Part shown: one piece after another, positions 1 through 5,787 of the stretch
Layout: the number at the start of each line of letters is the position of its first letter
Position numbering within the stretch: the first letter of the stretch is position 1
DNA from: Planctomycetota bacterium
GTDB taxonomy: Bacteria; Planctomycetota; Planctomycetia; Pirellulales; Pirellulaceae
Length of the DNA: 5,787 nucleotides
NCBI GenBank assembly: GCA_026692885.1
Contig: JAPLNJ010001052.1
Span: 1-5,787, forward strand
Direction of reading: 5' to 3'
The notes under the pieces: generated by a model
What the model saw: only the letters and a program-made list of their open reading frames with translations
The model's database searches: none
Told to the model about the DNA's origin: nothing
Translations under genes and position numbers: made by a program

Positions 1-26
1 CGAGGTTGAGCATGTCGAAACCAATG

Positions 27-86
27 CCTTGATCATAAGGTTACGATGATCCGCTGCTAGCGTTTTGCGCCACCTTATGATCAAGG
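27..86. repeat. 15-bp perfect inverted repeat with 30-nt loop
   Basis: The left arm (27-41, ccttgatcataaggt) and right arm (72-86, accttatgatcaagg) are exact reverse complements. The 30-nt loop contains a smaller palindrome, cgct-gct-agcg. There is no T-tract on either side, so a simple intrinsic terminator is unlikely. Its role is unknown; it could be the end of a small mobile or palindromic element, or a structured 3' region of a transcript beyond the window. Confidence 0.7.
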
Positions 87-99
87 ACGTGATCCACAG

Positions 100-221
100 G
101 TTTTCGCCCCAAAGGGGCAGCCACATAGCAGCCCAGGGCAGAGCGGAGCGGCGTTCGCCGCGTAGCGCCGCCCTGGGTTATGAGAGGATTGAGAACACGA
201 GCCCTGAAGGGGCGAAACAAG
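100..221 (+). repeat. Composite palindromic element, copy 1
   Basis: Three palindromic modules occur in order. A short hairpin gcccc-aaa-ggggc is at 106-118. A long central hairpin is closed by cccagggc (132-139) and gccctggg (170-177), with an inner stem gcggcg-tt-cgccgc at 148-161. A third module from 200 starts agccctgaaggggcg. The same three modules occur in the same order on the minus strand at 264-387. The conserved blocks are the module ends; the sequence between them differs between copies. No coding function is apparent, and it looks like an interspersed structured repeat. Confidence 0.75.
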
Positions 222-263
222 CCTTGGTCACGTCTGACGAACGGTGCGCGTGAGAGGGACCGC

Positions 264-387
264 CTTGTTTCGCCCTTTCAGGGCTACCAGGTTGCTTCGA
301 TACGATACCCAGGGCGTCGCTCTGCGGCTGTCGCCGCGACGCTGTGCCCTGGGCTGATTTGTTTTGGCCCCTTCAGGGCGAGAAAAC
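264..387 (-). repeat. Composite palindromic element, copy 2 (inverted)
   Basis: Read on the minus strand this repeats copy 1. A gttttc-flanked gccc/gggc hairpin (361-387) comes first. A central hairpin follows, closed by cccagggc (308-315) and gccctggg (346-353). Last is a terminal module agccctgaaagggcg (ending at 285). The terminal modules of the two copies face each other: 200-221 and 264-285 are reverse complements at 21 of 22 positions. In the central hairpin the inner sequence differs from copy 1 but is still self-complementary (gcgtcgc 314-320 with gcgacgc 336-342), which points to conservation of structure rather than sequence. Confidence 0.75.
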
Positions 388-504
388 CAGGAACATCCGC
401 CGTCTTTGCCGCCCAATTTCCGTAAACAATACCTGCCCGATTGCTTTCCTGCGTCAACCCCAACTTTGCCTCGCCCTCCCGTGCCATTGGCAACCCTGGG
501 CAGA

Positions 505-1608
505 CTATTTCCTCTGCGTTGCCTGACGGCGGCGGTAGCGGTAATAGGCCGCACAAGCGCCTTCGGCCGAGACCATCGGGGCGCCGAGCGGGTATTCGGG
601 CGTGCAAGGGCCGCCGAAAGCCGGACACTCGTATGGTTTCTTATGCCCTTGGAGGACTTCCCCGGCCAGGCACGCGGACGGCTCGTTCCGCGTCAGGTCC
701 CCGACCGCGAAACGGCGACTGGCGTCGAAGCGAGCGTAGGCTTCGCACAGGCCCCAACCGCTGTCCGGGATCTCGCCGATACCGCGCCACTTGCGCGAAA
801 CGGTGGTGAACACCCTGCGGACCTGAGCGAGGGCCGCCGGATTCCCCTCCGCCCGCACCACTCGCGTGTACTGATTCTCCAACTCGGCGCGACCATCCTC
901 CAACTGCCGCACGCACATGTGGATGCCTTGCAAGATATCCAGCGGTTCGAAGCCGGTAACCACGATCGGGACCAGGTACTGGGCCACCAACGGGCGATAT
1001 TCTTCGAGCCCCATGACCGCACACACGTGCCCGGCGGCCAGAAACGCCTGCACGATGTTGCGCGGCGAATCCAGCACAGCGCGCATCGCGGGCGGCACGA
1101 GCACATGCGAAATCAAGACCGAAAAGTTCCGCAGCCCCAGTCGTTCGGCTTGCCCCACGGCCAGCGCATTCGCCGGCCCGGTGGTTTCAAAACCGATGGC
1201 GAAGAAGACCACCTCCCGATCCGGGTTCTCGCGTGCCAGTTGCACGGCATCCAGCGGCGAGTAGACAATCCGCACATCGCCGCCAGCCGACTTGACCGTC
1301 AACAAATCCAGCTTCGAACCCGGCACCCGCAGCATGTCGCCGAACGAGCAGAAGATCACCTCCGGGCGCGCGGCGATAGCAATCGCCTGGTCGATGATTT
1401 CCAAAGGAGTCACGCAGACCGGACAGCCGGGTCCGTGAATCAGCGTGAGTTGCCGCGGCAACATCTCATCCAATCCGAAACGCACGATCGCATGCGTCTG
1501 ACCACCGCAGACTTCCATGATGTTCCACGGTCGAGTCGTGGCCCGGTGGATGGCCTCGGCACACCGTTTGACCGCGTCGGCATGGCGATACTCGTCGACG
1601 TACTTCAC
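505..1608 (-). CDS. hypD: HypD, hydrogenase iron-site assembly scaffold
   Basis: HypD works in the cytoplasm with HypC as the scaffold on which the Fe(CN)2CO unit of [NiFe] hydrogenases is built; it carries a [4Fe-4S] cluster. The 367-residue product has the family hallmarks. CGGQTH begins at Cys34, GPGCPVC contains Cys62 and Cys65, and GFETTGP lies at 139-145. The C-terminal cluster ligands are probably Cys313, Cys328, Cys335 and Cys352, within the PAFGGPC and MVSAEGAC motifs. Length is normal and no key residue is missing. The start is GTG, chosen because the protein then begins MKYVDEYR as HypD proteins do and an AGGAG sits 8 nt upstream. It overlaps the hypC stop as GTGA, suggesting translational coupling between the two partners. 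The gene ends TAG with no adjacent hypE. Confidence 0.97.
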
Positions 1609-1901
1609 GGCGCGCTCTCCTGTGTCGAGCTAACGGCCGCGGCAGGGCCGGGGCAGTCGCCGTTTTCCAAGTCCGACAGGGCCTCGATCTGCTGGATGTA
1701 GGAGAAGATCTCTTGGGCCTCCTGCTCGTCGATGCGGCTGATCGCAAAGCCGACGTGGACCAACACGTAGTCCCCGACCTGCACTTCGGGCAGATACGCC
1801 AGGCAGATATCTTTGGCAATGCCGCCAAACTCGACTTTGCCCATCATCAGCCCGTCTTGCTCGTGGACAGCGAGCAGTTTCCCAGGGATTCCCAAACACA
1901 T
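1605..1901 (-). CDS. hypC: HypC/HybG-type maturation chaperone
   Basis: HypC is a small cytoplasmic chaperone that binds HypD, helps carry the Fe(CN)2CO group and then escorts the hydrogenase large-subunit precursor. The 98-residue product starts MCLGIPGK; Cys2, exposed after Met removal, is the residue that contacts iron and HypD. The core motif [12 protein letters not shown] is at 42-53, followed by the usual SRIDEQEA helix. Family members are often about 75-90 residues, and here a low-complexity tail of roughly 20 residues (from about 79, rich in Pro, Ala and Ser) extends the C terminus. The tail may be lineage-specific. The ATG start is fixed by the MCLGIPG motif and by AAGGA at 1910-1914, 8 nt upstream. 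It lies 18 bp after hypF and overlaps hypD by 4 bp, so the three genes are probably one transcript. Confidence 0.97.
1617..1621 (-). promoter_or_regulatory. hypD ribosome binding site inside hypC
   Basis: AGGAG on the minus strand lies within the hypC tail, 8 nt before the GTG of hypD. It supports the GTG start and coupled translation of hypC and hypD. Confidence 0.65.
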
Positions 1902-1919
1902 GAAACCGTTCCTTTGTTG

Positions 1920-4298
1920 TCACGTCAGTCGTCGCGCAGCGACGAGCACCTGCCCCAAGGCGAGGCCGCCATCGCCCGGTGGGACTTGCTGTTGAATGTA
2001 CACGCGGAAGCCGTCTGCGGACAGGCGTTCTTGAACGCGAACTGTCAGCAACGCATTCTGAAAGCAGCCACCGGTCAGTGCCACTTGGGGATCACCGCAG
2101 CGGCGGGCCACGGCCAACGCCAGGGCTGCCAAGGCGTTGTGGAATCTGGCCGCGATAACCTCGACGCCCACGCCTTGCTCCCGGTCTTCGAGGACCGCCC
2201 GAATCATCGGCTCCCAGTCACCGCTCGCCGGAATCGTGTCGGACAGCGGCAGTGGATAGGCTTCCCGCACCGTCGCGTCCGCCACGAATTCCAGTCCCAT
2301 CGCGGCTTGACCCTCGAAGCTCACGCGATCCGGCAGATCACAGATGGCGGCCACCGCATCGAACAACCGGCCCATGCTGCTGGTGCGTGGGAATACGTGT
2401 GGACGCCGCAAGGCCGCTAGCAGCACGCCCAACTCCGCCTCGGCAAACCACCGCTCCGCCCAAGGGGCTACCGCGTCGCCCAGCATCTCGAACAGCAGAC
2501 CCAATGCGGTGCGACGCGGTTCGCGTGCCGCCCGATCGCCGCCCGGCAGGGGAAAGGTCCGCAGGTGTGCCACCCGCTGGAACTCCGCGCCCTCGCAGTG
2601 CAACACCTCACCGCCCCAGACCGTTGCGTCCGGGCCGTAACCGGTCCCGTCCCACGCGAATCCCAGCACGGGACCCTGCAGTGCATGTTCGGCCAGGCAG
2701 GCTGCGACGTGAGCGTGATGATGCTGAACTCGAACGAGCGGCACGTCCCAGGTCGTCGCCAGTTGCTCGGCGTGCCGCGTGGAGGCATAGTCGGGGTGCA
2801 GGTCGCAAGCGACGGCGTGCGGCGTGACCGCAAAGAATTCGACCAAATCCTGAATCGTCCGGCGGTGTACCTCGACGCTCAACGCGGTGTCCAAGTCTCC
2901 GATGTGGGGCGAGATGACCACTTCCGCACCCAGGCTCAGGGCCACGGCATTTTTCAGGTGCCCGCCAACGGCAAGAATCGAGGGTGCCTGGAATCCCAGG
3001 GGGATGGCCAACGGAGCGTAGCCGCGAGCGCGGCGTAGGACCTGGACACGACCCGCTTCACGTAGACCGGTCTCTCCGAGACCGGGCTTCGCGTCTCGGA
3101 GAGACGCGACCACGTGAACGATACGCACCACCGAATCATCGACGGGCCGCACAATCGGCCGGTCATGTGTCAACAGCAAGTCGGCGATGCGGCCCAGTCG
3201 AGCCAAGGCGTCTTCCGTCGTGATCGCCATTGGCTCCTCGGATAGATTGCCGCTCGTGCACACCACCGGTCGGCGGATGCGGTCGAGCAGCAAATGATGC
3301 AGCGGCGAGTAGGGCAGCAGCAGGCCGAGGCACGGATTCTGCGGCGCAACCTCGACCACAATTTGGGCTGTTTCACGGCGGCGGACCAACACGATCGGCG
3401 CCTGGTGCGAGGCCAACGCGACGGCTTCGTCGGCCGTGACCACGGCCTGCCGGCGCACGTCGTCCAGCGTGGCCAACATTACGGCGAACGGCTTGTGCGG
3501 CCGTTGCTTGCGCCGCCGCAGACGCTCGACAGCCGACGAACTCGTGGCATCGACGATCAACTGGAAGCCTCCCAACCCCTGCAGCGCTAGGATTTTTCCT
3601 TCCCGGACCGCTTGGGCGGCCTGTTCCAGCGCTGTCTCGGCGTCGGCGAGACGCGTTCCGTGGTGGTCAAGCAAAGCCACCTGGGGACCGCAGAGGGGAC
3701 ATGCGATGGGTTGGGCGTGAAAACGTCGATCGCCTGGATCGTCGTACTCAGCCCGGCAGGCGTCGCACATCGCGAACCACTGCATCGACGTCCGCAGCCG
3801 ATCGTACGGCAGCGCCCTGATGATCGACCAGCGCGGTCCGCAGTTCGTGCAATTGGTGAACGGATAGCGATAACGGCGTGCTTGCGGGTCACGAATCTCC
3901 TGCTGACACTCCGCACAGGTGGCCAAGTCCGCCGGGATCGTGGGCCGCGGAGTGGACTGGCCGGTGCTGCTGCGAATCTGGAAGTCGCTCGCTCCGATAC
4001 CCTCTGGCGGAAGGCCGATGGGCTGCACGTCGAGCGAATCGAGGCGGGCCTGCGGCGGATACCGACTGCGCAAGGCTGCCAGAAAACGGTCCAGAGCAGC
4101 GGCCGTACCTTGCACTTCGATCTGCACGGCATCGGCTTCGTTCAGGACCCAACCGGAAAGCGATTCCTCGTGCGCCGTCTTGTACACGAACGGCCGGAAC
4201 CCGACGCCTTGCACCACCCCACGCACCGTGATTGCCAAACGGCGGACCGCAGGACTCGGAGACGAGGATGTGCCGGTCAGTGAGTCCGCAGCATTCAT
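1920..4298 (-). CDS. hypF: HypF, carbamoyltransferase for hydrogenase cyanide ligands
   Basis: HypF converts carbamoyl phosphate to carbamoyl-adenylate and passes the carbamoyl group to the HypE C-terminal cysteine, the source of hydrogenase CN ligands. The 792-residue product shows the whole domain series. An acylphosphatase domain spans about 20-110 (VQGVGFRPFVY, catalytic Arg35, with Asn53). Two zinc-finger-like sites follow (Cys128/131/150/153 and Cys178/181/200/203). A YrdC-like domain covers about 215-395 (KPFAVM at 269-274). A Kae1/carbamoyltransferase-like domain spans about 420-792 (HHHAH 526-530, WDGTGYG 549-555, EGQAAMGLE 662-670, TGGCFQN 742-748). No catalytic motif looks lost. 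The oddity is about 20 extra residues at 396-415, encoded by a palindromic element (3057-3118), between DDSVVRIV and LRRARGYAP, which normally lie close together. The ATG has AAGGA 6 nt upstream. Confidence 0.97.
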   Translation of the reverse strand: MNAADSLTGTSSSPSPAVRRLAITVRGVVQGVGFRPFVYKTAHEESLSGWVLNEADAVQIEVQGTAAALDRFLAALRSRYPPQARLDSLDVQPIGLPPEGIGASDFQIRSSTGQSTPRPTIPADLATCAECQQEIRDPQARRYRYPFTNCTNCGPRWSIIRALPYDRLRTSMQWFAMCDACRAEYDDPGDRRFHAQPIACPLCGPQVALLDHHGTRLADAETALEQAAQAVREGKILALQGLGGFQLIVDATSSSAVERLRRRKQRPHKPFAVMLATLDDVRRQAVVTADEAVALASHQAPIVLVRRRETAQIVVEVAPQNPCLGLLLPYSPLHHLLLDRIRRPVVCTSGNLSEEPMAITTEDALARLGRIADLLLTHDRPIVRPVDDSVVRIVHVVASLRDAKPGLGETGLREAGRVQVLRRARGYAPLAIPLGFQAPSILAVGGHLKNAVALSLGAEVVISPHIGDLDTALSVEVHRRTIQDLVEFFAVTPHAVACDLHPDYASTRHAEQLATTWDVPLVRVQHHHAHVAACLAEHALQGPVLGFAWDGTGYGPDATVWGGEVLHCEGAEFQRVAHLRTFPLPGGDRAAREPRRTALGLLFEMLGDAVAPWAERWFAEAELGVLLAALRRPHVFPRTSSMGRLFDAVAAICDLPDRVSFEGQAAMGLEFVADATVREAYPLPLSDTIPASGDWEPMIRAVLEDREQGVGVEVIAARFHNALAALALAVARRCGDPQVALTGGCFQNALLTVRVQERLSADGFRVYIQQQVPPGDGGLALGQVLVAARRLT
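3057..3118. repeat. Two-hairpin palindromic element inside hypF
   Basis: Hairpin A is ccggtctc-tcc-gagaccgg (3067-3085). Hairpin B is a 9-bp stem with loop gga (3089-3109). The two share a gtctctccgagac core in opposite orientations, so the unit is an inverted pair of small palindromes. An outer 7-bp inverted repeat, ttcacgt (3057-3063) with acgtgaa (3112-3118), encloses it. The core unit gtag...gaccac (3062-3113) is 52 nt and encodes HypF residues 396-413 without a stop. The same architecture and terminal bases occur at 4342-4395. The layout is like REP/BIME pairs of other bacteria, and the in-frame location is like Rickettsia palindromic elements; membership of a genome-wide family is inferred. 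Confidence 0.8.
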
Positions 4299-4309
4299 CC
4301 TTCGTCCTT

Positions 4310-4430
4310 AGGATCGCGAAAGAAATAACTGTCGCAAGAATGTGGTCATCTCGCTCCGCGAGATGACATGCCATCACGCGGAACGTGATGGCTACTTTGA
4401 AGACCCGACACTAATTCATTTCGCGATCCT
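4310..4430. repeat. 12-bp inverted repeat enclosing the hypB-hypF gap
   Basis: The arm aggatcgcgaaa (4310-4321), just upstream of the hypF ribosome binding site, is the exact reverse complement of tttcgcgatcct (4419-4430), which encodes the hypB C terminus. A separate 11-bp direct repeat, ccttcgtcctt, lies at 4299-4309 (the hypF ribosome binding region) and 4435-4445 (inside hypB). The 54-nt palindromic element sits between the arms. This may reflect local duplication or insertion, or a long-range stem in the hypB-hypF transcript. Confidence 0.6.
4342..4395. repeat. Two-hairpin palindromic element between hypB and hypF
   Basis: Hairpin 1 has a 10-bp perfect stem, gtcatctcgc / gcgagatgac, with loop tcc (4345-4367). 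Hairpin 2 has a 9-bp perfect stem, gccatcacg / cgtgatggc, with loop cggaa (4370-4392). The loops are in opposite polarity, so this is an inverted pair. Read on the minus strand the unit runs gtag...gaccac, 54 nt, matching the ends, loop polarity and size of the unit in hypF (52 nt) although the stem sequences differ. As RNA between hypB and hypF it could stabilise or attenuate the transcript; no T-tract follows, so it is not a classic terminator. Confidence 0.85.
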
Positions 4431-5084
4431 TAGCCCTTCGTCCTTGATCTGCTGTACCAGCCAGTCGGCCAATGTCTCCAGCCCGTCTCCTTTCAGTGCC
4501 GACACCGGAAACACTGCAGCCTGCGGTGCCAGACGCTGCAGATCGCCTCGCACACGCTCTAAGTCGAAGTTGGTGTAGGGCAACAGATCGAGCTTGGTGA
4601 TCACCAGGGCATCGCTACGCTGGAAGATGGCCGGATACTTGATCAGTTTGTCATCGCCTTCCGCGACGCTCAGCACCGCCACTCGCAGATGTTCGCCGAG
4701 GTCGAAGCCCGCCGTACACACCAAGTTGCCGACGTTCTCGATCCACAGCATATCCGCACGGCTGGTGTCCAAGCTTTCGCAGGCAGCAGCCACCAGGCTG
4801 GCATCCAGGTGGCACATGCCATCCGTGTTGATCTGCACGACCGGCACGCCTAACTTTTCCATGCGCTCGGCATCGATCTGCCCGGCGATGTCGCCTTCGA
4901 TGACCGCAGGCGCCAGACGCCCGGCCAGCTGCCGGAAGAGTCCCTCCAGCAGCGTTGTCTTTCCACAGCCTGGCGAGCCCACCAGGTTCACAGCGTACAA
5001 ATGCTGGGATGTGAAACGCGTTCGATTCTCAGCGGCGAGCTGGTCGTTGGCTTTCAAAATCTTTTTCGCAGCCACAATCTTCAT
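4416..5084 (-). CDS. hypB: HypB, nickel-insertion GTPase for hydrogenase
   Basis: HypB is a GTPase of the SIMIBI class that, usually with HypA, inserts nickel into the hydrogenase large subunit. The 222-residue product has a P-loop GSPGCGKT (36-43), the metal-site motif MCHLD with Cys91 and His92, the motif ENVGNLVC with Cys123, the base-recognition motif TKLD (163-166) and SALKGDG (195-201). It lacks both the N-terminal CxxCGC-type nickel site of E. coli HypB and a histidine-rich stretch, so it is a plain GTPase-core form. The start at 5084 is preferred because HypB homology begins at MKIV and GGGAG lies 7 nt upstream; the frame stays open to 5225, but that extension is encoded by repeat DNA. 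No hypA lies next to it. A 117-bp gap with palindromes separates it from hypF. Confidence 0.97.
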   Translation of the reverse strand: MKIVAAKKILKANDQLAAENRTRFTSQHLYAVNLVGSPGCGKTTLLEGLFRQLAGRLAPAVIEGDIAGQIDAERMEKLGVPVVQINTDGMCHLDASLVAAACESLDTSRADMLWIENVGNLVCTAGFDLGEHLRVAVLSVAEGDDKLIKYPAIFQRSDALVITKLDLLPYTNFDLERVRGDLQRLAPQAAVFPVSALKGDGLETLADWLVQQIKDEGLRIAK

Positions 5085-5091
5085 CGTCGGT

Positions 5092-5096
5092 CTCCC
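5092..5096 (-). promoter_or_regulatory. hypB ribosome binding site
   Basis: GGGAG on the minus strand, 7 nt before the ATG at 5084. It selects this start over upstream in-frame codons that would translate through the 34-bp inverted repeat. Confidence 0.6.
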
Positions 5097-5144
5097 GGGG
5101 GTTGCTTCTATTCTTAGGTAAACCCCGATTCCGGGCAACCCGTC

Positions 5145-5200
5145 AGTAGCGCGTGCCGAAATAAGTTCCCTGTCTGGTCCGTCAAGGCGGGGTCGGGTGT
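5145..5200 (+). repeat. 56-bp direct repeat, copy 1
   Basis: This copy starts agtagcgcgtgccgaaataa and ends ggggtcgggtgt. It aligns without gaps to 5732-5787; by hand count 46 of 56 positions match, with the differences clustered in the middle and the two ends nearly identical. Its last 12 bases are the start of the left arm of the 34-bp inverted repeat. It lies in the upstream region of hypB. No open frame is associated with it, and it looks like a dispersed repeat. Confidence 0.75.
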
Positions 5201-5286
5201 TCAGAAATTCATTTCTTGCGGCCAATTGCCCTTGACGATGGATAGCACCTTTGCCGCAAGAAATGAATTTCTGAACACCCGACCCC
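5189..5286. repeat. 34-bp perfect inverted repeat between csrA and hypB
   Basis: The left arm 5189-5222 (begins ggggtcgggtgttcag, ends ttgcggc) and right arm 5253-5286 are exact reverse complements over 34 bp, separated by a 30-nt loop. Transcribed from csrA towards hypB, it would form a very stable stem 16 bp after the csrA stop and about 105 bp before the hypB start. No T-tract follows, so it is not a standard terminator, but it could separate csrA and hypB expression or protect the csrA 3' end. The outer end of the arm is shared with the 56-bp repeat, which suggests converging copies of one element. Confidence 0.85.
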
Positions 5287-5302
5287 TAGCCGCACGTTGC
5301 TC

Positions 5303-5539
5303 TCAGCGTGGCAGATTCACCAGGACCTTGCCTCTTGGCAAAGTGGTCCTGAGATTCGAGTCCGCGTTGAGTGCCTCGGACTGGTTGCCAAACGGTGTCA
5401 GTTCGCTACGGAGTACCGAGACATCCAGCGGCGCGTCAATCCCCAGGCAGATCGTGTTGCGTTTGATCTTCAGCACTTTGACTCGGATGGTTCCATTGAT
5501 CACGATCACGTCGGCTTCTTTGCGGTTGAGCACCAACAT
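5303..5539 (-). CDS. csrA: CsrA/RsmA-like RNA-binding regulator
   Basis: CsrA proteins are small dimeric regulators that bind GGA motifs in mRNA leaders, mostly blocking translation. The 78-residue product begins MLVLNRK and continues through VIVINGTIRVKVLKI, CLGIDAPLDVSV and LRSEL, matching the CsrA beta-strand order. The two best-known RNA-contact positions are kept: Arg6 and Arg44. Differences from typical CsrA are loss of the Gly-Glu turn after residue 7 (here EAD), Leu at 43 where His is common, and a C-terminal tail of about 30 residues (49-78) that does not resemble the usual short helix. I chose the second of two adjacent ATGs (5539 rather than 5542) because it gives the MLVL start and better spacing from AGGAGG. 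It is co-oriented with the hyp genes but separated from hypB by 218 bp of repeats, so shared transcription is uncertain. Confidence 0.88.
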   Translation of the reverse strand: MLVLNRKEADVIVINGTIRVKVLKIKRNTICLGIDAPLDVSVLRSELTPFGNQSEALNADSNLRTTLPRGKVLVNLPR

Positions 5540-5546
5540 CATTGTC

Positions 5547-5552
5547 CCTCCT
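5547..5552 (-). promoter_or_regulatory. csrA ribosome binding site (AGGAGG), also a GGA motif
   Basis: A perfect AGGAGG lies 7 nt before the ATG at 5539 and 4 nt before the ATG at 5542, favouring the downstream start. It contains the GGA core that CsrA proteins recognise, so autoregulation is possible, as is known for csrA in other bacteria; this is inference. Confidence 0.65.
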
Positions 5553-5731
5553 GGAAGCGGTTTCTCACTCGATGGAATTGACACTGGGCAAGGCGTCCGG
5601 CCCTGACCTGCGGTGATTTATCGCCACTCGCTTGACACGGCTGGTCACACCACGCTGGCGGAAAGAAAAAAATCCAGTCGCCACGGCCCGTTGACCAATC
5701 TGCCGTCGCGACAGAGAATCGCAAGTTCCGT

Positions 5732-5787
5732 AGTAACGCGTGCCGAAATATGTTCCCCGTCTCGCCGGTCGGTCCGGGGTCGGGTGT
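5732..5787 (+). repeat. 56-bp direct repeat, copy 2, cut by window end
   Basis: This copy starts agtaacgcgtgccgaaatat and ends ggggtcgggtgt at the last base of the window. It aligns gap-free with 5145-5200. The repeat probably continues beyond the window with the rest of the 34-bp arm. The csrA-like gene lies between this copy and the oppositely oriented arm at 5253-5286, so the gene is bracketed by related sequences. Confidence 0.7.

Follow-up and report, generated by a model that had tools for sequence, protein, structure and literature searches.

The window, by which we mean the whole 5,787-nt stretch of DNA analysed (contig JAPLNJ010001052.1, assembly GCA_026692885.1, positions 1-5,787 of the forward strand, from a Planctomycetota bacterium of the Pirellulaceae), carries a planctomycete-like hyp cluster on the minus strand, as judged by open reading frames and Pfam domains. 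The named HypF relatives nearest to its HypF protein are likewise from planctomycetes (protein search, best 120 of 7997 matches), and no transposase gene lies within the 5,787 nt. The genes, and the parts of the palindromic element that hypF contains, are as follows:

505-1608, minus strand: hypD (open frame, Pfam)
1605-1901, minus strand: hypC (open frame, Pfam)
1920-4298, minus strand: hypF, encoding a carbamoyltransferase of 792 aa, open throughout, with its Pfam domains, carrying the insert
3021-3035, minus strand: RRARG motif, HypF residues 422-426, after the insert (alignment)
3054-3113, minus strand: codons of HypF residues 396-415, VVASLRDAKPGLGETGLREA (translation)
3059-3116, minus strand: REP pair with CAC/GTG ends, 58 nt (52 nt from tag to tag)
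3062-3085, plus strand: REP arm 2, GTAG (3062-3065), then A, then the stem CCGGTCTC-TCC-GAGACCGG (3067-3085)
3090-3113, minus strand: REP arm 1, GTGG (3113-3110), then T, then the stem CGCGTCTC-TCC-GAGACGCG (3108-3090)
3123-3140, minus strand: DDSVVR motif, HypF residues 387-392, at the end of the YrdC domain, before the insert (alignment)
within 4416-5225, minus strand: hypB (open frame, Pfam)
5303-5584, minus strand: csrA (open frame, Pfam)

The window holds further repeats. A 56-nt direct repeat (5145-5200 and 5732-5787, 82%) flanks csrA and may be another dispersed repeat, a 37-nt inverted repeat (5189-5225 and 5250-5286, 97% complementary) lies between hypB and csrA, and a 28-nt inverted repeat (4307-4334 and 4406-4433, 82% complementary) surrounds the gap between hypF and hypB. 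Beyond the end of hypD there is an inverted repeat with 78-nt arms (101-178 and 307-384, 77% complementary), in a stretch that also contains smaller inverted repeats with GCCCTGAAGGGGC.

A preliminary description of this DNA had placed two hairpins in inverted arrangement, enclosed by an outer 7-bp inverted repeat, in the part of hypF that encodes residues 396-415, with the reading frame unbroken. Both the arrangement and the coding hold: the inverted arms (3057-3082 and 3093-3118) are 26 nt each, 85% complementary and spaced by 10 nt, the outer repeat TTCACGT/ACGTGAA, read from the window sequence, is exact, and the translation continues through the element in the open 792-aa frame. Folded as RNA, the coding strand of 3054-3118 reaches -43.8 kcal/mol (z -6.85), with none of 200 shuffles as good. 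Both arms have a perfect 8-bp stem, the 3-nt loop TCC and a tag 1 nt from the stem, and the GTGG and GTAG tags lie outside both stems, yielding a head-to-head pair. Since each arm contains one exact copy of a 13-nt core that has no other exact match in the window, and since the unit recurs in other genomes, the palindrome is more than a product of chance. REPs have been defined by a GTAG or GTGG tag 0-2 nt from a fully paired stem of 7-20 nt with a loop of 2-5 nt (accessible part of PMC6006769), and the window arms agree with the GTAG superfamily in the distance of the tag from the hairpin (0-2 nt), in stem and loop, and in head-to-head orientation. An Rfam search gave no matches at the gathering score. 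Judged by eye, no direct repeat that could be the target-site duplication of a MITE stands beside 3059-3116 (ATCGTT / AAGCGG) or beside 3062-3113 (TTCAC / GTGAA), the true ends of the element being uncertain; among the matches listed from other genomes, many begin at positions 3-5 and stop at positions 60-64 of a 66-nt query.

The element is a member of a family present in other planctomycete genomes. Of 294 of these, two contain the hairpin pair with exact cores, at 7 and 4 places, and the arm GTRG-N4-GTCTCTCCGAGAC occurs in 17 of 397 genomes belonging to the same class as genome G001 (437 places in G673, 136 in G524, 82 in G660, 59 in G637 and 40 in G001), while the reversed pattern, used as a control, was found in none. 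When a spacing of 1-5 nt between tag and core was allowed, it was 4 nt at every one of the 52 places in G001 and G221. Furthermore, hypF used as a query matched other genomes through the element alone, for example through query positions 1181-1240 in G329 (90% over 60 nt), a genome whose own HypF (locus L093) has a 9-residue turn, and the element as query matched 13 of 13 genomes, these having been picked for earlier matches. In the triplet before the tag, 126 unique arms have C, A and C in 65, 54 and 68% of cases, CAC being the commonest triplet; the CAC that commonly precedes a REP tag thus accounts for CACGT within the outer inverted repeat.

The preliminary description had held that HypF proteins normally have only a few residues between the DDSVVR and RRxRG motifs, and the alignments bear this out. 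In a set of 119 HypF proteins (the best 120 of 7997 protein matches, less the window's own protein, which came first), the stretch from DDSxxR to RRxRG is 9 residues long in 114, as compared to 29 in the window HypF; the others have 10 residues (two proteins), 11 (one), 12 (P0003) and 23 (P0002), and the REP peptide is found in the turn of none of the 119. Similarly, of 95 genome loci 81 were readable by the motif pattern, 70 with 9 residues, two with 10 and nine with 15-28, the last being HypF of Anaerolineae/Chloroflexi and Desulfovibrionaceae (L007, L008, L011, L012, L016, L018, L035, L062 and L065; by eye, without the REP peptide). Alignment to relatives sets the extra residues, whose sequence recurs in none of the 119 listed HypF, against a 9-residue norm, and the printed alignments of three solved HypF (3vth, 4g9i and 3tsq) leave some 20 residues of the element unmatched. 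Taken together, the alignments suggest that the HypF turn is usually tight yet can be long without a REP element. Two other listed HypF (P0083 and P0110, 926 and 975 aa) have an extra PF00293 domain, presumably NUDIX.

The further claim that removal of 20 residues would restore a normal-looking HypF survives in part. The flanks IVH/GRVQVL are compatible with a 9-residue turn of the type VISGRLQIL, but the two closest listed relatives (84% and 78% identical) have turns of 23 and 12 residues with other protein sequence. In this lineage the turn had therefore already varied, which puts the net insert at 17-20 residues; exactly 20 cannot be proved. Searches of hypF DNA covered a contig scan (best match 61%), 60 relatives of G001 (up to 66% over most of HypF), 396 genomes of the order and 119 of the family. 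Most alignments to relatives end at query positions 1158-1183 and restart at 1250 or later; those to G308 and G326 run through. Because the best-scoring match is only 70% identical over 1050 nt, these searches gave no empty site in DNA, and the DNA of the P0002 and P0003 relatives was not found among the genomes searched.

Pfam YrdC spans HypF residues 230-401, and the insert does lie at the YrdC/Kae1 boundary, where the preliminary description had seen a new inter-domain linker; the place itself, however, is a turn between two strands in the AlphaFold2 prediction (34-sequence alignment, mean pLDDT 81.9). The insert falls between predicted strands 390-394 and 417-422, and residues 398-414 have pLDDT below 50. 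The model suggests that the insert probably forms a floppy loop on a turn where the YrdC domain ends.

REP pairs also lie inside other genes. Host genes were named by Pfam, with the element inside or beside the domains and the frame running through; names that go beyond Pfam are our own reading. The hosts are:

IleRS-like protein, G438
PolA, G637
ComM-like Mg-chelatase, G637
sulfatase, G621
methyltransferase, G637
ArgJ, G637
DDAH-like protein, G637
PSCyt/PSD1 protein with two inserts, G637
xanthine-dehydrogenase-like (XDH-like) protein, G637 (L266; Pfam only, the coding-potential test giving no in-frame call or count)
TruA, G637 (L269; Pfam only, likewise no call or count)
RuvC, G637 (L270:1392-2060; Pfam only, likewise no call or count)
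IlvD, G637
iron-sulfur protein, G637
ABC transporter, G637
radical-SAM protein, G637
aquaporin-family protein, G637
Mfd-like protein, G637
CarB, G637
Glu/Gln-tRNA synthetase, G709
UvrA, G745 (L373; REP pair in frame beside the UvrA interaction domain)
FtsX-like permease, G637 (Pfam domain on one side of the element only)

The inserts in the ComM-like, XDH-like and CarB proteins lie between domains, as in HypF. The first Pfam scan was confined to the 30 longest among 42 stop-free frames, covering 29 of the 68 places; 22 of the 30 had no family, some of them being alternative frames of places named in the true frame, and in later scans 1 of 10, 6 of 10 and 1 of 9 frames were without a family. 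At a further locus, L261, the in-gene place comes from Pfam, the coding-potential test having given no in-frame call or count. In three genes of G637 and G799 (L252, L264 and L371) a REP pair stands in frame directly before a prepilin N-methylation motif, where it may code for part of the leader or sit just upstream of the start; at these loci and at L086 the element before the motif is possibly outside the coding region.

The RuvC insert could be followed among relatives. In 120 listed RuvC relatives, the corresponding stretch is 6 residues in 84, the full 23 in 20, and 5 to 34 in the other 16. Among the 20 closest (78-94% identical), most keep a VGESLRD...LGETRPR-like peptide in the printed rows, and the REP-coded insert amounts to 17 residues net. 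As it is common to close relatives, in-gene REP inserts can be inherited.

The frequency of in-gene places was compared with random positions in the same loci, using a codon-usage score trained per genome and counting places after removal of duplicates, of those less than 250 nt from a locus end and of those without an exact arm. In G637, 16 of 43 places fall in frame within coding sequence, 15.7 being expected, so genes are not avoided there; in seven genomes whose heads are mainly GTAG (mostly places most like the window element in G660, G524, G944, G709 and G329, and some places in G001 and G221), 1 of 73 is in frame against 29.1 expected, so genes are avoided. The two proportions differ strongly (Fisher 1.9e-7). 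The count of heads in G637 gave 63 GTGG and 3 GTAG. Copies with a GTAG head occur in genes too, namely those of the IleRS-like protein in G438 (outside the rate comparison, the in-gene copy being its single arm place) and the Glu/Gln-tRNA synthetase in G709. The GTGG arm occurs in 5 of 43 genomes of G637's family; the four besides G637 have a single arm apiece, which lies in uvrA in one genome, before a prepilin motif in another and in short open stretches only in two (L372 and L374). The rate contrast, and with it the link between GTGG heads and in-gene places, therefore comes from one GTGG genome, G637.

As to reading phase, 14 of 17 in-frame places read V-x-x-S-L-R-D / L-G-E-T, as in hypF (p 5e-5 against a chance set at one third per phase). 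GTGG is not required for this phase, in which GTA and GTG both encode Val; only the TGG/TAG phase would be closed by a GTAG head. Rare codons were also considered as the cause of the bias and rejected: in the three elements inspected, the rare codon AGA is absent from the phase used and present in the other two, but the TGG phase scores slightly better in mean codon adaptiveness, so codon usage alone is insufficient.

A candidate mover was found in G637. Locus L257 has a RAYT-like ORF of 221 aa with an HVH motif (1097-1759, minus strand) between REP pairs at 1041-1084 and 1778-1821, which is the point of likeness to RAYT / TnpA-REP systems, none of which lies in the window; the ORF matches NCBIfam REP_Tyr_transpos (NF047646) at E 1e-13 with 51.3 bits, under the curated cut-off of 80, and Y1_Tnp weakly (1.5e-4). 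An exact arm is present at 3 of 42 PF01797 loci (L186, L199 and L206), the loci holding up to about 1.5 kb per side. Together with the literature, L257 suggests by analogy that the REP pair would have been mobilised by a RAYT. GTAG hairpins of other sequence stand beside PF01797 matches at L117, L182 and L185 and are possible further REP families.

The proposal of a palindromic mobile repeat inserted in frame is borne out by the GTAG/GTGG pair, the family in 17 of 397 genomes and the extra HypF residues; the precedent offered for it, Rickettsia palindromic elements, is not. These are alike in being palindromic repeats in frame in protein genes, but the sequences of R. conorii end in CGTC (PMC3733652, accessible part), whereas the hypF arms carry GTGG and GTAG. 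The closer relatives are the GTAG-tagged REP superfamily, REP dimers/BIMEs and REPINs, which share the GTAG or GTGG tag, the short stem, the tiny loop and the head-to-head pairing. According to the accessible part of PMC3733652 (Di Nocera 2013), GTAG REP families form dimers and have planctomycetes among their hosts (R. baltica); most REPs are intergenic, unlike those of G637, which show no avoidance of coding sequence. In-gene GTAG REPs, mostly dimers or groups, code for 20-30 residues that may sit in flexible linkers or loops, and uvrA is also among the hosts. In O. terrae most GTAG-20 elements carry GTGG, and in-gene GTAG repeats are more numerous in that species than in any other, the source not stating whether the two sets coincide. 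The word 'hydrogenase' does not occur in its main text, and hypF is unnamed there as far as searched; a literature search gave no publication joining hypF and REPIN, and no further account of REPINs inside planctomycete genes appeared among the matches listed. The hypF element is a new instance of a phenomenon, in-gene REP pairs coding for 20-30 residues, published in 2013.

We are confident that the hypF feature is a REPIN, a head-to-head GTGG/GTAG REP pair of a planctomycete REP family, probably tolerated as an in-frame loop and likely moved by a RAYT. A chance palindrome that arose by local duplication, with no mobile family behind it, could appeal to the variable turn length elsewhere, and is refuted for practical purposes by the tags, spacing, core and ends shared with other genomes and by the 90% match over 60 nt in G329. 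That the hairpin was retained as an RNA or DNA signal within hypF, acting for instance through pausing of translation between YrdC and Kae1 or through mRNA stability, is improbable: the very stable RNA hairpin near a domain boundary and the other inserts between domains are compatible with such a role, but the family is dispersed over unrelated genes, at the rate of random positions in G637, and no other listed HypF has the REP peptide in the turn.

A much more serious competitor concerns the order of events, namely that ordinary insertions in this lineage lengthened the turn first and the REP pair later entered a long, tolerant loop. The 23- and 12-residue turns of the closest relatives, without REP peptide, and the 15-28 residues in the same turn of unrelated Anaerolineae/Chloroflexi and Desulfovibrionaceae favour this order, and a 12-residue ancestor would make the net insert 17 residues, the same as in RuvC; the 9-11 residues of the other 117 listed HypF and the flanks suited to a 9-residue turn speak against it, and we regard it as a real but minority possibility. 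On the reading that we prefer, the REP pair would most likely have been moved as single-stranded DNA by a RAYT (an HUH tyrosine transposase), and one copy would have been inserted in hypF at the tight turn from the last YrdC strand to the strand leading into the Kae1-like part. Since neither 52 nor 58 nt is a multiple of three, a small indel must be assumed; the insert would have been retained when such an indel made the net length a multiple of three and the phase V-x-x-S-L-R-D ... L-G-E-T was read without a stop. Translation of the element would then give a loop, some 17-20 residues long and predicted to be disordered, and HypF probably still works with it, its activity unchanged.

REPINs are usually regarded as extragenic, and here one copy is part of a metalloenzyme-maturation protein. 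In G637 the family occurs in frame in coding sequence with the frequency expected of random positions, predominantly in one phase, and at least one insert is common to relatives. We tentatively suggest, as one possibility that falls short of our favoured expectation, that a GTGG-headed branch of planctomycete REPINs could be compatible with coding: with no TAG in the head it would have no stop in any phase, could enter genes as freely as intergenic DNA, mostly in one phase, and would leave an inherited V-x-x-S-L-R-D ... L-G-E-T loop, so that one mobile family may have added loops to the core proteins HypF, PolA, RuvC, UvrA, CarB, IlvD and ArgJ. Whether bacterial mobile repeats supply loops to core proteins, and whether loss of TAG from the REP head opened genes to them, are questions that can now be tested.
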